DNA of 64,000 nt. Origin: Desulfocapsa sp. Lineage in GTDB: Bacteria > Desulfobacterota > Desulfobulbia > Desulfobulbales > Desulfocapsaceae. The position numbers were made by a program, and so were the translations under genes. The stretch lies in the NCBI GenBank assembly GCA_022712895.1, contig JAFLJS010000051.1, positions 1-64,000 on the forward strand, given 5' to 3'. Shown in pieces: positions 503 to 11,094 of this stretch. Positions within the stretch are counted from its first letter, which is position 1. Each line of letters opens with the position of its first letter. The notes under the pieces are model-generated. The model saw only the letters and a list, made by a program, of their open reading frames with translations, was not told where the DNA came from and did not search any database.

Positions 503-3500
503 TTAGGCGAGCTCCCCTTGCAACTGTTTTACCAGATTTTCTAAATGCATTCCCCGAGATCCTTTAACAAGAATATAAGATCCCGCCTGTATCGTGCCAT
601 CACCGACCAGAGTCTGTAACCAGTCATAACAGCTAGTCTGATCGTTAAATAATCTGAGCGTTGTTCGTTTACCTTCGCTTTTCTCTACCCCGGCCTGTAC
701 CTGGCTTTTGTAGTCACCCAGGATCGCCAGGAATTCGATACCGAGCTCTCCCGCACAGCGACCGACTTCTGTGTGAAGTCTATCAGCATCATTACCAAGT
801 TCCAGCATATCTCCTAAAACAGCGACACGGGCTGCGCCCTCAAAACCTGCCAGAGTCTCAAGACCAGCCCGCATTGATTCGGGGTTTGCGTTATAGCAGT
901 CGTTTATAATCCTGCTTCCCGCCGGGCCATCAACAATCTGCATCCTGCCATCAGCCGGCTTGAAAGCAGCAAGTCCCTCTGCAATCTGCACCATACCAAC
1001 ACCTGCGGCATGGGCAATTCCAGCAGCAGCCAGTGCATTGCTGACATTATGATTTCCAGGGACAGCAAGTGTAATTTGTGCCTGTTCCGTTCCGATGTGC
1101 AGACGAAAACGAATCTCTTCTCTTTGACTCAGATCAACGTCCGAAGAATACACATCCAATAATGAAGCATCGTTGCCACCACATCCAAAAATGACCTTGT
1201 TCTGTACACAGTTTGCTGCCAATGCAGCAACTCTTGCATCATCATTATTGACTACCAGGACTGTCTCTGGCCCACAATTTCTGAACAGTTCACCCTTGGC
1301 TTTAGCTACTCCTTCTATGGTTCCCAGTCCTTGCAAATGGGCGCCATGTACATTCAAGATACAGGCGATATCAGGATCAGCTATTTCAGTCAGCCTCTTA
1401 ATTTCACCGGGACTGTTCATTCCCATTTCCAGCAGTACGGCCTCATGTGCGGGCGTAATGGGTAACAGGGAAAGTGGTAAGCCGATGGAGTTATTGAAAT
1501 TCCCTTCTGTTTTCAAGACCCTATTCCTGGCAGTCTTGTCACTGTCCGGCCACTGTTGTTTGAAAATTGAAAAACACATCTCTTTGAGGGTAGTCTTTCC
1601 ACTGCTGCCGGTGATACCAACAAGCACTGGGCTACTCAGTGCTTGCATACATTTTCGTCTGTAGGCCGCAATATCTCCCAGTGCCTTTTCAGTGTCTTCA
1701 ACGAGGAGAACCGGAACAGAAAGGGGTTGTTCCGGCTGGTGATGCATAACAAGACAAGCAGCACCTGCTTTTACCACATCAACCACATAATCATGGGCAT
1801 CAAAGCGCTCCCCCTGCAGGGCAACAAATATATCGTTCCTGTGTACCGTTCTTGAATCGGTGGAGACATTGCCTAAAAAACTATCGGTGTTTTCACGACT
1901 CAGCAACTTTCCACCTGTTGCCAACAGTAGTGACTCCAACTGCCATCCACTCAGTGCTTTTTTGGCTTCAAGTCTGTCATCGAAAAATCGTTTTCCACTC
2001 TCAGTGATCTGATAATCTTCATGACCCTTGCCTGCAATAAGCACAATATCACCGACACCAGCTCCTCCAATTGCAGTAGCTATGGCTGCACTTCGTTCTG
2101 GGACAAGTACGAAGCCAGTTTCGTGTTCTTTTATGAAGCGTATCCAGGGCATATCCCGTTCTGGAAGATCTGTTTTTTTTATGCCAGCCGCAACCATCAA
2201 GCGAATAGTTGCTGGATCTTCACTGCGAGGGTTGTCATCTGTGATAATTGCCACATCAGCAAAATTGCCACAGATTTCACCCATGAGGGCACGTTTTCCT
2301 GTATCTCTATCGCCCCCACAACCAAAAACACAAAACAATTTGTTATGGGGTAACGCTTTGAGTGTTTTCAACACCTGTAAAAGTGCGTCGGGAGTATGGG
2401 CATAATCGATAAAAACAGAGGGGCGAAAACCTTCTTCTCCAGGAACCATCTCCACTCGCTGCATTCTTCCTGGCGCACCAGCTGCTGTTGCTAGGGATTT
2501 ACCGATTTCTACTGGTGAGACACCTGCACAACGAGCCATGGCAAAAGCAGTTTGCAGATTTTGTACATTAAAGTCTCCAACCAGAGGTGACGTGAACGCA
2601 GACGTTCCGATATCCGTTTGCAAAACTATTTCAGTGTGCTGCAGACTTCCCCGGATCGACTTTGGAAAAATATCATTATCCACTGTGCCGCAAGTTACGA
2701 TCCGCAAACCACAATCGGTACAGATTGCCTGTAAAGCCTTGCTCCACTGACTATCCATATCTGAAAAAGTAATAACAGCTTGACCATTTTCTTTGAGATG
2801 TTTGCTAAAGAGTAAACATTTTGCATCAAAATAGGATTCCATATCCATATGATAATCAAGATGATCACGTGATAAATTGGTAAAAGCTGCCACATCAAAC
2901 AACAAGTTACCTATTCTGTTTTGTGCAAGACCGTGGGACGAGACCTCCATGATCACGCAACCAACACCAGCATCGGCCATCTCACGTAGAACCCCTTGCA
3001 GAAGGAGTGGTTCCGGGGTGGTAAAAGGAGATGGGAACACTTGTAACTCACCATTTCTATCCATATATCGATAATTTATGGTACCAATCACTCCAATCTG
3101 CTTTCCAGCATCCTGGAGCACCCATTCCAGCAGGTAACTGATACTCGTTTTACCGTTGGTTCCGGTGATGCCCATCATGGTCATAGCATGAGCAGGACTA
3201 GCAAACAGCGTCTCTGCCAGCAAACTATAGGCAATCCGACTGTCCTCAACTTCTATGATGCAGGCTGTGCAGTCTCGAATTATCTCCTGCGACAACCGCC
3301 CCTTCTCAACAAGAATGGCAGCGCAGCCATTTTTCAAAACATGATTCACATAATCGTGACCATCACGATCTTCCCCGCGTAGGGCGATAAAAAACGCATT
3401 TTCATTACAATTTCTGGAATCGACACTGACAATCTCTGGAAAACAAGTGGTAGGATCTCCGCACAAACAGGAAAATTCTATGGAGTGAAGTAAGGAAATC

Positions 3501-3634
3501 AAGGGGGGAGCCGAAGAAGACACAACAGTTCCGGGGCTGGTACAGGACCAATTGCCCTGTGGCATTCCGGAAGGTTGTTGAGACATATTACTGTCCTGTT
3601 GTGTTTGCTTGACTGCTGCTGACTGTTGTATCAT
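503..3634 (-). CDS. murEF: Fused MurE-MurF: DAP-adding ligase joined to D-Ala-D-Ala-adding ligase
   Basis: A single 1043-residue chain carries two cytoplasmic Mur ligases that normally are separate. Residues about 45-562 are MurE, which adds meso-diaminopimelate: P-loop GTNGKT at 158-163, the YFDAK lysine near 272 (usually carbamylated), and DNPR at 468-471, the signature of DAP-specific MurE. Residues about 566-1043 are MurF, which adds D-Ala-D-Ala: GSSGKTT at 676-682 and the NNDDAR and NDCYNANP motifs. Only a few residues link the halves. The first ~45 residues are Gln/Ser-rich and absent from typical MurE. The start overlaps the end of the FtsI-like gene by 4 bases. MurE-MurF fusions are known elsewhere, for example in Bordetella. 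Confidence 0.95.
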   Translation of the reverse strand: MIQQSAAVKQTQQDSNMSQQPSGMPQGNWSCTSPGTVVSSSAPPLISLLHSIEFSCLCGDPTTCFPEIVSVDSRNCNENAFFIALRGEDRDGHDYVNHVLKNGCAAILVEKGRLSQEIIRDCTACIIEVEDSRIAYSLLAETLFASPAHAMTMMGITGTNGKTSISYLLEWVLQDAGKQIGVIGTINYRYMDRNGELQVFPSPFTTPEPLLLQGVLREMADAGVGCVIMEVSSHGLAQNRIGNLLFDVAAFTNLSRDHLDYHMDMESYFDAKCLLFSKHLKENGQAVITFSDMDSQWSKALQAICTDCGLRIVTCGTVDNDIFPKSIRGSLQHTEIVLQTDIGTSAFTSPLVGDFNVQNLQTAFAMARCAGVSPVEIGKSLATAAGAPGRMQRVEMVPGEEGFRPSVFIDYAHTPDALLQVLKTLKALPHNKLFCVFGCGGDRDTGKRALMGEICGNFADVAIITDDNPRSEDPATIRLMVAAGIKKTDLPERDMPWIRFIKEHETGFVLVPERSAAIATAIGGAGVGDIVLIAGKGHEDYQITESGKRFFDDRLEAKKALSGWQLESLLLATGGKLLSRENTDSFLGNVSTDSRTVHRNDIFVALQGERFDAHDYVVDVVKAGAACLVMHHQPEQPLSVPVLLVEDTEKALGDIAAYRRKCMQALSSPVLVGITGSSGKTTLKEMCFSIFKQQWPDSDKTARNRVLKTEGNFNNSIGLPLSLLPITPAHEAVLLEMGMNSPGEIKRLTEIADPDIACILNVHGAHLQGLGTIEGVAKAKGELFRNCGPETVLVVNNDDARVAALAANCVQNKVIFGCGGNDASLLDVYSSDVDLSQREEIRFRLHIGTEQAQITLAVPGNHNVSNALAAAGIAHAAGVGMVQIAEGLAAFKPADGRMQIVDGPAGSRIINDCYNANPESMRAGLETLAGFEGAARVAVLGDMLELGNDADRLHTEVGRCAGELGIEFLAILGDYKSQVQAGVEKSEGKRTTLRLFNDQTSCYDWLQTLVGDGTIQAGSYILVKGSRGMHLENLVKQLQGELA

Positions 3635-5529
3635 TTCTGCTGTGACTCTTGCTGTATTCCATTCTCAGGATATACATCAGGCACCAGCTCCAGTTGAACG
3701 ATGGTACCTTTTTTCAGCTCTTCTCCGGGAGCTGGTATTTGACTGCTGATTCGCCCTGTGCCATTTGCCTGCACTGTTATTTCTGTACGTTGCAGAAGTC
3801 TCAGCCCTTTACGAAGACTGAAACCTGTCACATCCGGCATCAGCAGAGTATGTTTATCAAGGATATTGGCCAGGGTTTGGGAACTGTTCTGCCCCTTGCT
3901 CTGCTTTTTATTAAAATTCTTTTCCTGAAATTCCGGAAACTCCATCATATCCGCAATATTCTGGTGCACCTGCTGCAATGCGACCATGGAAGGCAAGATG
4001 GAATCAATTTCTTTTGTTAAAAAATCCGCACCCTGCACTTGCTGTACATCCGGGCCCGGTTTATTCTGCCGGGACACAATCAGCAGCATAAGCTCAGGTT
4101 TTACTCCAGAAATGACCACCATGGACATCCGGTCTCGCACATATTGGCCACCGGAATAATCAGGAATCAAGGAGACGGTTTCACCATTTAGAATTCCTGT
4201 TCCAAGCACTGCTTTTCTTCCATCTTTCTGTAGAAACGTCCGAAGTTCTTCTGAAACTAGAGAAGGCAGTACCTTTCGCCCTCCACTCTCTCCTAAAAAG
4301 CCATTGTAGAAATATTCTTTCTGGCTGTTTCGTTCCAGAATCCTGTCCAGAATATGAGGTTGCACTTTCCTGCCACCATTCAACAGATGCGTCATTCCCA
4401 GTAAAGTCTTCAAAGGGGTTGCTGTTTTTGGAACTGTCCCACAATCTTCTTCAGCCGAGCAATTCACAAATTGTGGAATGGACATCTGCTTCCTCTTGCC
4501 ACCTGAAAAATCCACCTGCTGCTCAGTGGACAACTGCAACCTGTCCCACAACCTGATCTGTCTGGAAAAATCCATTTTCCCGGCAACAATACTCCAGGGA
4601 TAAATCTGGGTTCCCTGTTCCCAACCGCCCTGCAGTTGAGAGGCAACGCGAAAAAACTTCCTGATTTTTTCCGGGATAACCACTGGCGTAAAAAGCAATG
4701 ATCCAAGAACATCATGGTCATGCTGCCAGACACTGTTCAGGTTATAGCTGGGATAGTTGGCTCCCGCGATAATCCTGCCATCAACTGCATTGAGTAGCAG
4801 AGAAGCAATTTGCCCCTCCCCCATCTGCTGACCAAGACTCGCCACATAATTTTCAAGTATGGTCTGGATTTTCATATCAAGGGTCAGAACCAGATCATGG
4901 CCGTATGGCAATGTCTGTTCAAGCCCCTCAAGATCGATGTCTGGCAGATCCACCTGCCTGATGGAACCGTGATTGAGTAAACGGTTATAATAGTGCTCAA
5001 CCCCGGCAAGCCCACGATCATTCTCAGAATATCCAATCAGATGTGATGCTTTTTCCTGCTCAGGGTAACTTCTGGCAAACTCTCTGTGGAAATAAATTCC
5101 TGGAAGATTAAGGTTTGCCACCAATTCTTCATCTACTTGTGCAATATCACGGCGTAACCAGACAAGATGAGAATCGCGTTGCAGAGACTCCAAAATCTCA
5201 GAATCCGGCATGCCGAGTATTTCTGAGAGTTGCTCAGCAGTTTTGAGAAGGTTTGTAACTTCCCTTGGCCGCACATAGAGTGAAACCCGCTCCAGAGTTT
5301 GAGCAAGCTCTTTAAAATTCCTGTCAAAAATAGTGCCACGCAATTCATCCGTAGCCACCTTTTCCTGAACATCAAATGTTTCCTGCCATACTTCAACAAG
5401 ATTCGTCAACTGTTGCTGATAGTTAGCCCATACTCCCGCACCGACACCTGCCAATAGCAGAAAGAAAAAAACAAACAACGGCCATCGTCTTTGTGAAGCG
5501 CTTGTTTTAAGACGTGATTTTCTGGCCAT
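3631..5529 (-). CDS. FtsI-like (class B PBP) protein with PASTA domain and degenerate transpeptidase motifs
   Basis: Sits at the normal ftsI position. It has one N-terminal membrane anchor (about 17-35), the class B PBP pedestal with RGTIFDR, the NYPSYNLN stretch that normally precedes motif 1, and a C-terminal PASTA domain (about 550-615). The catalytic signatures are missing. Where EPGSTxKP should follow NYPSYN the chain reads LLFTPVVIPEKIRKFF, with no SxxK. No SxN is seen in the next segment, and the KTGT position reads VLGTG. The flanking folds are retained, so this is a decayed active site rather than a truncation. I infer a structural or septal lipid II/partner-binding role, with an active FtsI encoded elsewhere. 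A weak AGAG ribosome site precedes the ATG. Confidence 0.85.
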   Translation of the reverse strand: MARKSRLKTSASQRRWPLFVFFFLLLAGVGAGVWANYQQQLTNLVEVWQETFDVQEKVATDELRGTIFDRNFKELAQTLERVSLYVRPREVTNLLKTAEQLSEILGMPDSEILESLQRDSHLVWLRRDIAQVDEELVANLNLPGIYFHREFARSYPEQEKASHLIGYSENDRGLAGVEHYYNRLLNHGSIRQVDLPDIDLEGLEQTLPYGHDLVLTLDMKIQTILENYVASLGQQMGEGQIASLLLNAVDGRIIAGANYPSYNLNSVWQHDHDVLGSLLFTPVVIPEKIRKFFRVASQLQGGWEQGTQIYPWSIVAGKMDFSRQIRLWDRLQLSTEQQVDFSGGKRKQMSIPQFVNCSAEEDCGTVPKTATPLKTLLGMTHLLNGGRKVQPHILDRILERNSQKEYFYNGFLGESGGRKVLPSLVSEELRTFLQKDGRKAVLGTGILNGETVSLIPDYSGGQYVRDRMSMVVISGVKPELMLLIVSRQNKPGPDVQQVQGADFLTKEIDSILPSMVALQQVHQNIADMMEFPEFQEKNFNKKQSKGQNSSQTLANILDKHTLLMPDVTGFSLRKGLRLLQRTEITVQANGTGRISSQIPAPGEELKKGTIVQLELVPDVYPENGIQQESQQK

Positions 5530-5622: not shown

Positions 5623-5991
5623 TTATTTGAGAAATTTATACTGTCCTAACCCTGGAAGGTGGATGGCAAACTGATCACCCGCCATGGCTCCAACAGTCTC
5701 TGGAGAAAACATGTCTGCCTTTTTGCCACGCATCAAGATATTCGAATTTTCCAGCTGATCCCGCTGCATTTCAACTTTACTGATCTGTGTATCAATCTGT
5801 AGAATACTGCTGCCCAACCAAAGTGACCCCAGCAGCAGAAATGCAGTCACTCCACAGAGCACCTTGCCCACCGCAAAATACAGTTGTTTGCCGCCGGGTA
5901 AATTTATAGCCTGTTGCCTTCTGTATCTACTGCGAGACTTGAAAGCTTTTCTACGTGGAATTACAGTGTGAGCTGATGGATTGATAATCAT
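5623..5991 (-). CDS. ftsL: FtsL-like division protein
   Basis: Small bitopic protein of about 122 residues: basic cytoplasmic N-terminus rich in Arg/Lys, one membrane segment (GVTAFLLLGSLWLGSSIL), then a short heptad-like periplasmic coiled coil ending in a hydrophobic tail. That architecture and its place between rsmH and the ftsI-like gene identify FtsL, which works with FtsB/FtsQ to control septal synthesis. I chose the ATG at 5991 because AGAGGTG lies five bases upstream; an upstream in-frame start at 6039 would overlap rsmH and has no such site. Sequence conservation is weak, as usual for FtsL, so the call rests on shape and context. Confidence 0.8.
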   Translation of the reverse strand: MIINPSAHTVIPRRKAFKSRSRYRRQQAINLPGGKQLYFAVGKVLCGVTAFLLLGSLWLGSSILQIDTQISKVEMQRDQLENSNILMRGKKADMFSPETVGAMAGDQFAIHLPGLGQYKFLK

Positions 5992-6007
5992 GTTACACCT
6001 CTTTGCC

Positions 6008-6910
6008 TTACACTTTTTCAGCAACCCGCAGACGGGCACTTCTTGATCGTGGATTTGTTTCTACTTCTTCCCTTGAGGCCATTACTGGTTTTTTGGTAAG
6101 CACCTTGAATTTATCATTTTCACGAAACTTTCTTTTTACCATTCTATCTTCGAGAGAGTGAAATGAGATAACACAAAATCTGCTCCCTGATGTTAAATGG
6201 TTAGCAGCTTCGTCTAAAATTTTCGAAAGGTTCTCAAGTTCCGTATTGACTGCGATCCTGAGAGCCTGAAAGACCAGGGTCGCAACATGTTTCCTTTTGG
6301 GATGAAAACGCCTGGGAACAGCCTTTGAGATCAAATCGACCAACTGCTTTGATGTCTCAATAGGTTGTTGCTTTCGTTCCTTAACCACAAAAGAGGCAAT
6401 TCTTCTGGCCTGTTTCTCTTCACCGTAATAGTAAAAAATATCCGCCAGTTCCTGCTCTTTACAAGTTGCCAAAATCGATGCTGCGGTGATTTGCTGCCGT
6501 ATATCCATTCGCATATCCAGCGGCTCATCCTGCTGAAAACTGAATCCTCTACCGCCAATATCAAGTTGCAGGGATGAAAGGCCTATGTCTATAAGAATTC
6601 CATCAACTCTATCAATCCCACACTCTGCCAGACCTTCTTTTATTTCAGAAAAGTTTCGCCTGACTATTGTCAGACGATCACCAAAGACTGCCAGCCGCTC
6701 TCTGCTCTTTTCAATGGCCGCGCCATCCCAGTCAAAAGCAATCACTCGGCCATCAGGCACACTCGCCTGTAAAATTCCCTCACTGTGTCCGCCAAGGCCC
6801 ATGGTTCCATCCATGTAAACCTTGTCAGTCAGGGGATTTAAGAATTCAATGCACTCATCAAGCAAAACCGAACGATGAATCTTTGCAGCCTCAGATATTT
6901 CCTTCATCAA
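6008..6910 (-). CDS. rsmH: RsmH (MraW), 16S rRNA m4C1402 methyltransferase
   Basis: SAM-dependent enzyme that N4-methylates C1402 of 16S rRNA in the ribosomal P site. The 300-residue product has the typical HRSVLLDECIEFL opening, the glycine-rich SAM motif DGTMGLGGHSEGIL, the IDIGLSSLQLD and GRGFSFQQDEPLDMRM family blocks, and the C-terminal VISFHSLEDRMVKRKF and NPRSRSARLR motifs. Length is normal. The start overlaps the end of mraZ by 4 bases and ftsL follows after 16 bases, so it is cotranscribed in the dcw operon. Confidence 0.97.
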   Translation of the reverse strand: MMKEISEAAKIHRSVLLDECIEFLNPLTDKVYMDGTMGLGGHSEGILQASVPDGRVIAFDWDGAAIEKSRERLAVFGDRLTIVRRNFSEIKEGLAECGIDRVDGILIDIGLSSLQLDIGGRGFSFQQDEPLDMRMDIRQQITAASILATCKEQELADIFYYYGEEKQARRIASFVVKERKQQPIETSKQLVDLISKAVPRRFHPKRKHVATLVFQALRIAVNTELENLSKILDEAANHLTSGSRFCVISFHSLEDRMVKRKFRENDKFKVLTKKPVMASREEVETNPRSRSARLRVAEKV

Positions 6911-7377
6911 AGAATACCCAGTTTAGCCAACCCTTCATCAAGCGAATCAAAGGTCTCACGGGTGCTCTGCATTTCACGATTCCAGGCGTCAACATCCCAG
7001 ATTTCAATCCAGTCACGCATTCCGGTAAGTATGACGTCTTTCCCCATTTTGATCTCAGTACGAAGGGAAACGGGAAGCAGGAGGCGTCCCTGTTTATCGG
7101 TTTTGCAATCTGTGGCTCCGGAAAGCACCATGCGAATAAAACCTCTCAAATCCGGCTGTTCTTTCACCTGATCCATGAGCCTGTCTTCCATGATTTCCCA
7201 TTCCGAGAGGGGATAGATACGGAGATGTCCTTTCCAAGGAGCAAGGATCAGCTTGTTTGAACCATAATGACTCAACACCTCACGGAAGCGACTTGGCAAA
7301 TTCAAGCGCCCCTTGGTATCCAGACTATGCTCAGACTTACTTCGAAATCTGCTTTTTATGGTATTTGGTTCACCCAT
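6907..7377 (-). CDS. mraZ: MraZ, transcriptional regulator of the dcw operon
   Basis: First gene of the cell-wall cluster. It has two AbrB-like MraZ folds: FRSKSEHSLDTKGRLNLPSRFR at about 10-31 and SGATDCKTDKQGRLLLP at about 94-110, the second carrying the D-x-K-G/Q-R-L-x-L-P signature. MraZ proteins form ring oligomers and repress their own operon by binding repeated GTGG-type boxes. An in-frame GTG at 7398 would give seven more residues but falls within the repeated operator boxes. The ATG at 7377 gives 156 residues and follows GAGGAG by nine bases, so I prefer it. Confidence 0.93.
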   Translation of the reverse strand: MGEPNTIKSRFRSKSEHSLDTKGRLNLPSRFREVLSHYGSNKLILAPWKGHLRIYPLSEWEIMEDRLMDQVKEQPDLRGFIRMVLSGATDCKTDKQGRLLLPVSLRTEIKMGKDVILTGMRDWIEIWDVDAWNREMQSTRETFDSLDEGLAKLGIL

Positions 7378-7383
7378 CAAGCG

Positions 7384-7420
7384 CCACTCCTCTTCCACTT
7401 TGTATCCACTTTACTCCACT
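7384..7420 (-). promoter_or_regulatory. Four MraZ boxes (GTGG repeats) upstream of mraZ
   Basis: On the minus strand GTGG occurs four times in phase, with plus-strand CCAC at 7384, 7395, 7406 and 7416, spaced 10-11 bp. Three occurrences have AAGTGGA or AAAGTGGA context. This matches the known MraZ operators: tandem boxes about one helical turn apart, TGGG-type in E. coli and AAAGTG-type in Mollicutes. They lie between the predicted promoter and the mraZ start, as expected for autorepression. Confidence 0.85.
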
Positions 7421-10565: not shown

Positions 10566-10820
10566 ATGACCATAACACATTCAATCTTGGCAGACGTAAG
10601 CGCAGGAATTTCTGAACTTAAAAAGAACCCAATGGCAGTTGTTGAACAGGGGGATGGCGCTCCTGTTGCAATACTTAATCGTAATCAGCCAGTTTTTTAT
10701 GCTGTTCCAGCAGAAGCCTACGAATTGCTAATGGATAAACTCGAAGATATCGAACTGGCCGAAATAGTCAGAAACCGTTTGGACGCGCCGGAGATCGAGG
10801 TTTCACTCGATGAGCTATAG
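10566..10820 (+). CDS. Antitoxin, Phd/YefM (StbD-like) family
   Basis: 84-residue antitoxin of a type II toxin-antitoxin pair. The N-terminal part (SILADVSAGISELKKNPMAVVEQGDGAPVAILNRNQPVFYAVP) is the Phd/YefM DNA-binding fold. The acidic C-terminal tail (LEDIELAEIVRNRLDAPEIEVSLDEL) would wrap the toxin. It overlaps the toxin gene by 11 bases, typical for such pairs, and very likely represses its own promoter with the toxin as co-repressor. Confidence 0.9.
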   Translation: MTITHSILADVSAGISELKKNPMAVVEQGDGAPVAILNRNQPVFYAVPAEAYELLMDKLEDIELAEIVRNRLDAPEIEVSLDEL

Positions 10821-11094
10821 ACTTCTATTTAAAACAGTTGCGAAGAAAGAATGGGATAAACTGGATTCTTCCGTTCGATTGATTTTCAAAAAACGGCTGG
10901 CCGAGCGATTAAAAAAACCACACAACGAATCGACTCGACTTAGCGGGATGAAAAATTGTTATAAAATAAAACTGCGACAAATTGGTTTCAGGTTAGTTTA
11001 TCAGGTGAGAGATAAAGAGCTGATTGTCGTAGTTGTTGCGATCGGAAAAAGAGAAAAGAATTTCGTCTACAAAAGAGCGATCAAGAGAATATAG
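10810..11094 (+). CDS. RelE/StbE-family toxin
   Basis: 94-residue basic protein of the RelE superfamily, whose members cleave mRNA at the ribosome. It opens SYRLLFKTVAKKEWDKLDSSVR, then has KKRLAERLKKP, a central NCYKIKLRQIGFRLVYQV strand pair and the terminal VVVVAIGKREKNFVYKRA strand. These are the usual RelE/StbE blocks, with Lys/Arg residues where catalytic residues sit. It overlaps the antitoxin. A broken RAYT lies upstream and an IS3 remnant downstream, so the pair is probably horizontally acquired. Confidence 0.9.
   Translation: MSYRLLFKTVAKKEWDKLDSSVRLIFKKRLAERLKKPHNESTRLSGMKNCYKIKLRQIGFRLVYQVRDKELIVVVVAIGKREKNFVYKRAIKRI

Follow-up and report, generated by a model that had tools for sequence, protein, structure and literature searches.

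A putative pseudo-transpeptidase in the ftsI position of Desulfocapsa sp. and the apparent absence of FtsW from its relatives

The ftsI gene and its locus

We analyzed a 64,000-nucleotide stretch of DNA from Desulfocapsa sp. (the window; assembly GCA_022712895.1, contig JAFLJS010000051.1, positions 1 to 64,000), a member of the order Desulfobulbales in the class Desulfobulbia, and focused on the ftsI gene of its division and cell wall (dcw) cluster, which runs mraZ, rsmH, a gene at the ftsL position, ftsI, and a fused murE-murF. The ftsI open reading frame (ORF) is intact, with an ATG start and no internal stop, encodes a protein of 632 amino acids (aa), and shares 4 bp at its stop with the ATG of the murE-murF ORF. 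The product has the membrane anchor, the PBP_dimer pedestal, the position beside and before murE, and the full-length profile homology of the class B penicillin-binding protein (PBP) FtsI (PBP3), but differs from it in that the three catalytic motifs SxxK, SxN, and KTG are lost and no FtsW partner was found in the genome. Both PBP_dimer and PASTA were found with Pfam (Table 1), whereas the Transpeptidase family (PF00905) reached 11.7 bits against a cut-off of 22.1; all NCBIfam PBP models scored far under their cut-offs, with the best stretches stopping by residue 303.

The fate of the motifs was read from an hhalign comparison of a profile of 48 motif-less FtsI sequences from the order with a profile of 47 motif-bearing FtsI sequences from the same phylum, which aligned with an E-value of 9e-136 over 606 columns (a C-terminal piece from genome G033 was excluded from the former, and the FtsI of G131, the frame of which stops after SSN, from the latter). 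The column of the catalytic serine falls on K288 and that of the SxxK lysine on K291; serine occupies position 288 in 1 of the 48 motif-less rows, and in none together with Lys291. The SxN column corresponds to S322-R323-Q324, with S-x-N/D there in 3 of the 48 rows, and 15 residues of active FtsI are deleted after I325. KTG is deleted as well, V452 and S453 flanking the gap. The original prediction, made from the sequence without database searches, was that FtsI lacks all three motifs at their aligned positions but keeps the anchor, pedestal, and PASTA domain in a frame free of shifts and stops that overlaps normally with the downstream gene, and it was borne out in each of these respects. We infer that the FtsI of Desulfocapsa sp. 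is a pseudo-transpeptidase that has lost its active site.

Table 1. Coordinates of ftsI, its parts, and neighboring genes in the window, and of a protein in the ftsW slot of other genomes (positions with an L prefix refer to other loci).
Feature	Coordinates	Strand	Basis or remarks
ftsI with motif-less transpeptidase domain	3631..5529	minus	632 aa; ORF, Pfam domains, dcw position
N-terminal basic tail and membrane anchor (residues 1-40)	5410..5529	minus	sequence reading; putative transmembrane segment
PBP_dimer/pedestal (residues 64-169)	5023..5340	minus	PF03717, E 3.8e-11
Degenerate transpeptidase domain (residues 211-500)	4030..4899	minus	profile alignment to active FtsI; dN/dS 0.08-0.10 in three least saturated pairs
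Place of SxxK, K288-I-R-K291	4657..4668	minus	hhalign mapping
Place of SxN, S322-R-Q324	4558..4566	minus	hhalign mapping
SGGK (342-345), suspected SxxK	4495..4506	minus	aligns elsewhere; S..K in 16/48 rows
KTG deletion point, between V452 and S453	4171..4176	minus	hhalign mapping
PASTA domain (residues 564-615), MPDxxGxSLRK	3685..3840	minus	PF03793, E 2.2e-7
Fused murE-murF (1043 aa)	503..3634	minus	two each of Mur_ligase_M, Mur_ligase_C, and Mur_ligase stretches
Small protein at the ftsL position (138 aa in the call; the true start probably lies inside)	5623..6039	minus	position only
rsmH (mraW)	6008..6910	minus	PF01795, E 1.8e-106
mraZ	6907..7398	minus	PF02381, E 1.3e-25
Hydrophobic ftsW-slot protein	L142:3107-3892, L143:3085-3879, L144:2692-3483, L146:3651-4436		

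Among the neighbors, the ftsL-position protein had no match in Pfam or NCBIfam. Judged by ORF length and place, a murE-murF fusion also occurs in G009, G024, G063, G069, G197, and G237 (978 to 1046 aa), and murE and murF are two ORFs in G038 and G136. Farther along the window, at 10566-11094 on the plus strand, lies a pair of genes for a Phd/YefM-type antitoxin and a ParE-type toxin.

Motif loss and FtsW in the order and class

The class members sampled were all labeled as belonging to the same order or nearer. A match to ftsI was present in 54 of the 56 order genomes searched, that of Desulfocapsa sp. included, and 49 of the 54 were examined for motifs; G019, G035, G039, G044, and G048, with fragments or matches near contig ends, were left out, and G033 was counted by its C-terminal piece. 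None of the 49 contained the spaced triplet, defined as SxxK followed by S-x-N/D/C after 45 to 74 residues and K/H/R-S/T/A-G after 170 to 259 residues, and the triplet was likewise missing from G063, G069, and G067, inspected in additional checks. With 0 of 49 genomes carrying it, a sequencing error or frameshift, which the original prediction had allowed for, is not a reasonable explanation and was rejected; the loss is shared by all relatives examined, a point that the original prediction had proposed to test. The ftsI of G033 is split over two frames, and the match in G020 crosses two stops, yet a 610-aa frame there covers residues 64-617; the remaining matches are without an internal stop. 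The transpeptidase site was probably erased in an ancestor of the whole order, along with the loss of FtsW.

The gene itself is under purifying selection. The ratio of nonsynonymous to synonymous substitution rates (dN/dS) over the ftsI frame was 0.06 to 0.16 in six pairs within the genus, where dS ranged from 0.66 to 3.0 and was in several pairs near or past saturation, and for the motif-less domain alone the ratio was 0.08 to 0.10 in those three pairs for which dS was smallest (0.66 to 1.0). These values argue that ftsI is not decaying. Across the 48 motif-less rows, 56 columns reach at least 85% conservation, and conservation is highest in the pedestal and the PASTA tail. The suggestion that the loss is tolerated thus accords with both the selection on the frame and its order-wide occurrence in the genomes examined.

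FtsW was sought through the SEDS proteins in a class census of 105 genomes, each at least 95% complete. Exactly two PBP_dimer proteins were found in 102 of these genomes and exactly one SEDS protein in 101. G004 has three PBP_dimer and two SEDS proteins, with 8% contamination; in G045, rodA is in two pieces; G058 has an additional 43-residue SEDS scrap at a contig end; and of ftsI in G039, which has a single PBP_dimer protein, just a C-terminal portion was found, near a contig end. Of the 107 SEDS matches, 105 begin no more than 3 kb from the mrdA match; of the other two, one shares the mrdA contig at a distance of 5.2 kb and the second is the contig-end scrap. The SEDS protein of Desulfocapsa sp. 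passes the RodA model (406.1, cut-off 336.7) and fails the FtsW model (292, cut-off 337.5). In this 3.68-Mb genome, which has a completeness score of 100%, the window opens contig 48, and the remainder of the dcw cluster must therefore lie on another contig. In all five order clusters read (G009, G024, G038, G063, and G069), murD adjoins murG, the two being separated by -24 to 235 bases, and the dcw stretch encodes no SEDS protein. FtsW thus appears to be missing across the class, the sole SEDS protein being, by its place beside mrdA and in Desulfocapsa sp. also by its model scores, RodA.

Separately, G067 (FtsI at L125), 99% complete in 100 contigs, has a single PBP_dimer protein, the motif-less FtsI, and no SEDS/RodA, PBP2, or MreC match; it may be a class-A-only wall builder, or the assembly has a gap.

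The original prediction missed the main point, namely that FtsW is gone too, so that polymerization as well as crosslinking would have moved elsewhere. Since the FtsI active site and FtsW are both lost across the sampled members of the order, the division wall there must be built by other enzymes. A second FtsI elsewhere in the genome of Desulfocapsa sp., which we had been led to look for, was rejected: the genome encodes two PBP_dimer proteins, and PBP2 is the only class B PBP with the motifs.

FtsI and FtsW outside the order

The phylum sample comprised 118 genomes. Of the 112 that fall outside the class, 54 supplied an FtsI, taken as the second class B PBP, or as the only one where PBP2 is missing. 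At least two SEDS proteins were present in 89 of the 112 genomes. The full motif triad was found in 47 of the 48 non-order genomes not scored as FtsW-less, with SxN 54 to 56 and KTG 192 to 205 residues past the serine; the exception, G131, has SxxK and SxN, after which the frame ends. By comparison, none of the six FtsW-less genomes (G136, G164, G189, G197, G217, and G237) has the triplet, and each has one SEDS protein; in the four of the six that were tested (G136, G197, G217, and G237), the fetched dcw stretch contained no SEDS gene. Five of the 47 motif-bearing genomes are also single-SEDS (G137, G138, G141, G178, and G176), and the SEDS protein of the first four, encoded on the FtsI contig, is presumably FtsW. 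Overall, the fetched dcw stretch encoded a SEDS protein in 20 of 20 genomes with a motif-bearing FtsI (the stretch was fetched for 20 of the 47), versus 0 of 17 with a motif-less or eroded FtsI. Outside the order, then, loss of the FtsI site and absence of FtsW likewise coincide in these genomes.

As a control, PBP2 of 17 FtsW-less genomes retains SxxK in 17, SxD in 17, and KTG in 16, and among 43 other genomes SxxK and SxD are present in all, KTG in 42, and KSG in one. PBP2 of G217 (L187) has KTA for KTG, so that neither class B PBP found there carries three standard motifs. The motif-less FtsI proteins of G136, G197, and G236 pass the PF00905 cut-off, with 101.8, 38.9, and 25.8 bits, and the PF00905 score alone therefore does not reveal the loss. 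A mirror image is seen in G137 and G141 (L104 and L071), where a motif-bearing FtsI and a SEDS protein are encoded on one contig and neither an MreC match nor a second PBP_dimer protein was found.

In single-SEDS families for which the family search returned no second PBP_dimer protein, an ORF still lies between the ftsL-position gene and murE. It measures 455 aa in G236, 410 aa in G146, 320 to 333 aa in G145, G173, and G196, and 248 to 318 aa in G142, G170, G193, G213, and G233; the slots of G174 and G216 are not part of this series. None of these ORFs (248 to 455 aa) contains the triplet. That of G236 exceeds the Pfam cut-offs for PBP_dimer and Transpeptidase, that of G146 falls under both, and that of G170 exceeds the PASTA cut-off; those of G193 and G145 had no Pfam match at E-values up to 1, and the ORF of G145 is tied to FtsI by profile (2.5e-4). 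Two families with an eroded ftsI encode, in the ftsW slot flanked by murD and murG, a very hydrophobic protein of 261 to 264 aa (Table 1), which had no Pfam match in the two proteins scanned and may be a replacement or a remnant of FtsW.

The distribution requires three changes on an MrdA plus RodA tree (60 rows), with a single change in 0 of 200 bootstrap trees, and three on a dcw-marker tree (37 rows, quick search), for which the one-clade tree was 15.6 log units higher. Because one origin was not rejected on either tree (p 0.115 and p 0.627, respectively), we do not claim independent losses of FtsW.

Candidate septal synthases and the role of the motif-less FtsI

Four PF00905 proteins are encoded by the genome of Desulfocapsa sp. 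One is PBP2; the other three are class A PBPs that carry GT51 as well as transpeptidase motifs. Among these, the PBP1A-family protein (618 aa) and the PBP1B (783 aa) score above their NCBIfam cut-offs, and the third, of 1095 aa, carries a long insert and lies on contig 63 (L004:58-3345). Frames of this giant kind (1100 to 1166 aa, with GT51) were among the matches listed for 25 of 28 order members, and not for G009, G075 (a 661-aa frame), or G107. The giant protein was rejected as a general substitute, being listed in none of 10 other FtsW-less genomes and, at similar size, in 2 of 22 FtsW-bearing ones. By ORF length and among the matches listed, only the 620- to 720-aa class A kind looks near-universal. 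G136, G197, and G237 have just one GT51 protein each, and their septum should come from this single class A PBP, from RodA-PBP2, or from both.

FtsI contacts FtsW and FtsQLB through its anchor and pedestal in other bacteria. On balance we favor a reading in which the motif-less FtsI is a non-catalytic divisome protein and another synthase, a class A PBP or RodA-PBP2, builds the septum. The orthologue at dcw would have lost its transpeptidase site together with FtsW, and its anchor, pedestal, and PASTA tail would bring a different peptidoglycan synthase to the septum or activate it there. For that synthase a bifunctional class A PBP seems the leading candidate, by a little over even chances, with FtsI as its non-catalytic partner by analogy with PBP1 and PBP3 of Clostridioides difficile. 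At the sequence level this is supported by the loss of three motifs, the selection on the frame, and searches that found neither an FtsW nor a motif-bearing class B PBP besides PBP2; the lack of activity, the adaptor role, and the identity of the septal synthase are what we infer from them.

In C. difficile, the class A PBP1 is reported to be the divisome synthase (PMC10693644) and PBP3 to help non-catalytically (PMC12539705). A canonical FtsW-FtsI pair is missing from both systems, the septal synthase is probably a class A PBP, and a class B PBP may assist non-catalytically; the likeness is supported by the three class A PBPs of Desulfocapsa sp., which have both GT51 and transpeptidase motifs. 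The systems differ in that C. difficile PBP3 retains SxxK without being essential, and the dcw pair there functions in sporulation, whereas in the order FtsW is lost and the dcw FtsI itself lacks its site.

Several points weigh against this proposal. At least one GT51 protein is present in all 60 genomes scanned, so that class A presence does not separate FtsW-less from FtsW-bearing genomes, and a PBP1B-sized frame (783 aa in Desulfocapsa sp.) is not among the matches listed for several order members. The retained pseudo-transpeptidase could bind stem peptides or serve a role unrelated to FtsW. AlphaFold2, given the window protein plus one relative, reached a mean predicted local distance difference test score of 31, and the result was not used. 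In C. difficile, division does not require PBP1 to act as a transpeptidase, and the authors raise L,D-transpeptidases as candidates for crosslinking at the septum (PMC12539705).

The second likeliest arrangement, possible but clearly behind a class A synthase, is that RodA-PBP2 performs septation as well as elongation, recruited by the motif-less FtsI, with class A PBPs filling in. RodA-PBP2 is the sole SEDS-class B pair found in these genomes, PBP2 carries all three motifs in 16 of 17 FtsW-less genomes, and in some C. difficile cells PBP2 was seen where division takes place, but the authors of that work regard it as primarily an elongation enzyme (PMC12539705), and G067, with its motif-less ftsI, suggests that class A PBPs may suffice, unless its assembly has a gap.

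The original prediction assigned septal crosslinking to another PBP or to L,D-transpeptidases. The need for another transpeptidase stands, PBP2 being the only motif-bearing class B PBP, but L,D-transpeptidases are improbable as the source of septal crosslinks, despite two YkuD proteins in the genome of Desulfocapsa sp. and their mention for C. difficile: a YkuD match was missing in 2 of 28 order members, 1 of 4 other FtsW-less genomes, and 3 of 22 FtsW-bearing genomes scanned (G028, G115, and G136 being the FtsW-less ones), which makes these enzymes a weak general substitute, and an L,D-transpeptidase would still require a strand polymerase. It is more improbable still that FtsI catalyzes with other residues, for example through FSGGK. 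The alignment to active FtsI is significant over its whole length, and a serine and lysine stand at 342-345, as the original prediction had considered for SxxK; in the sequence profiles, however, FSGGK aligns to the IDxPGE segment and was rejected as the active site, 32 of 48 rows lack S..K there, and deletion or replacement has affected both the KTG strand and the stretch past SxN. That ftsI is a decaying pseudogene held by its place in the operon alone, as the shortened versions in further FtsW-less families and the interrupted matches of G033 and G020 might suggest, is the least probable reading of all, given a dN/dS of about 0.1 with the motif-less domain included, the conserved columns, and the other matches free of internal stops.

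The group of Desulfocapsa sp. is Gram-negative. Extending the adaptor reading, we propose, tentatively and at somewhat under even chances, that division throughout the class, presumably including the cable bacteria, proceeds without a catalytic FtsW-FtsI pair, an adaptor FtsI handing the septum to a class A PBP, that elsewhere FtsI has eroded to 248 to 333 aa with a trace of pedestal or PASTA, and that G067 may lack SEDS proteins altogether. A dcw survey may already describe the absence of FtsW. In a study of cable bacteria and Desulfobulbus, ftsW, ftsN, and zipA were reported absent from four Desulfobulbaceae genomes, consistent with our class-wide result; the accessible part of that study counts FtsI among ordinary division-plane proteins and mentions no lost motifs (PMC7873302). 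The absence of FtsW was thus known before for four genomes, and the motif-less FtsI is apparently unreported, no report of lost FtsI motifs in this group having been found in the literature searched, the coverage of which excluded most subscription papers.

According to one report, FtsW-FtsI has been regarded as universally conserved among bacteria (PMC10693644). Loss of the two activities throughout the class, while selection preserves the body of FtsI, would be a natural experiment that parts the structural from the catalytic role of FtsI and makes the roles of its pedestal and PASTA parts testable. It also predicts that beta-lactams aimed at FtsI would be without a divisome target in these bacteria.

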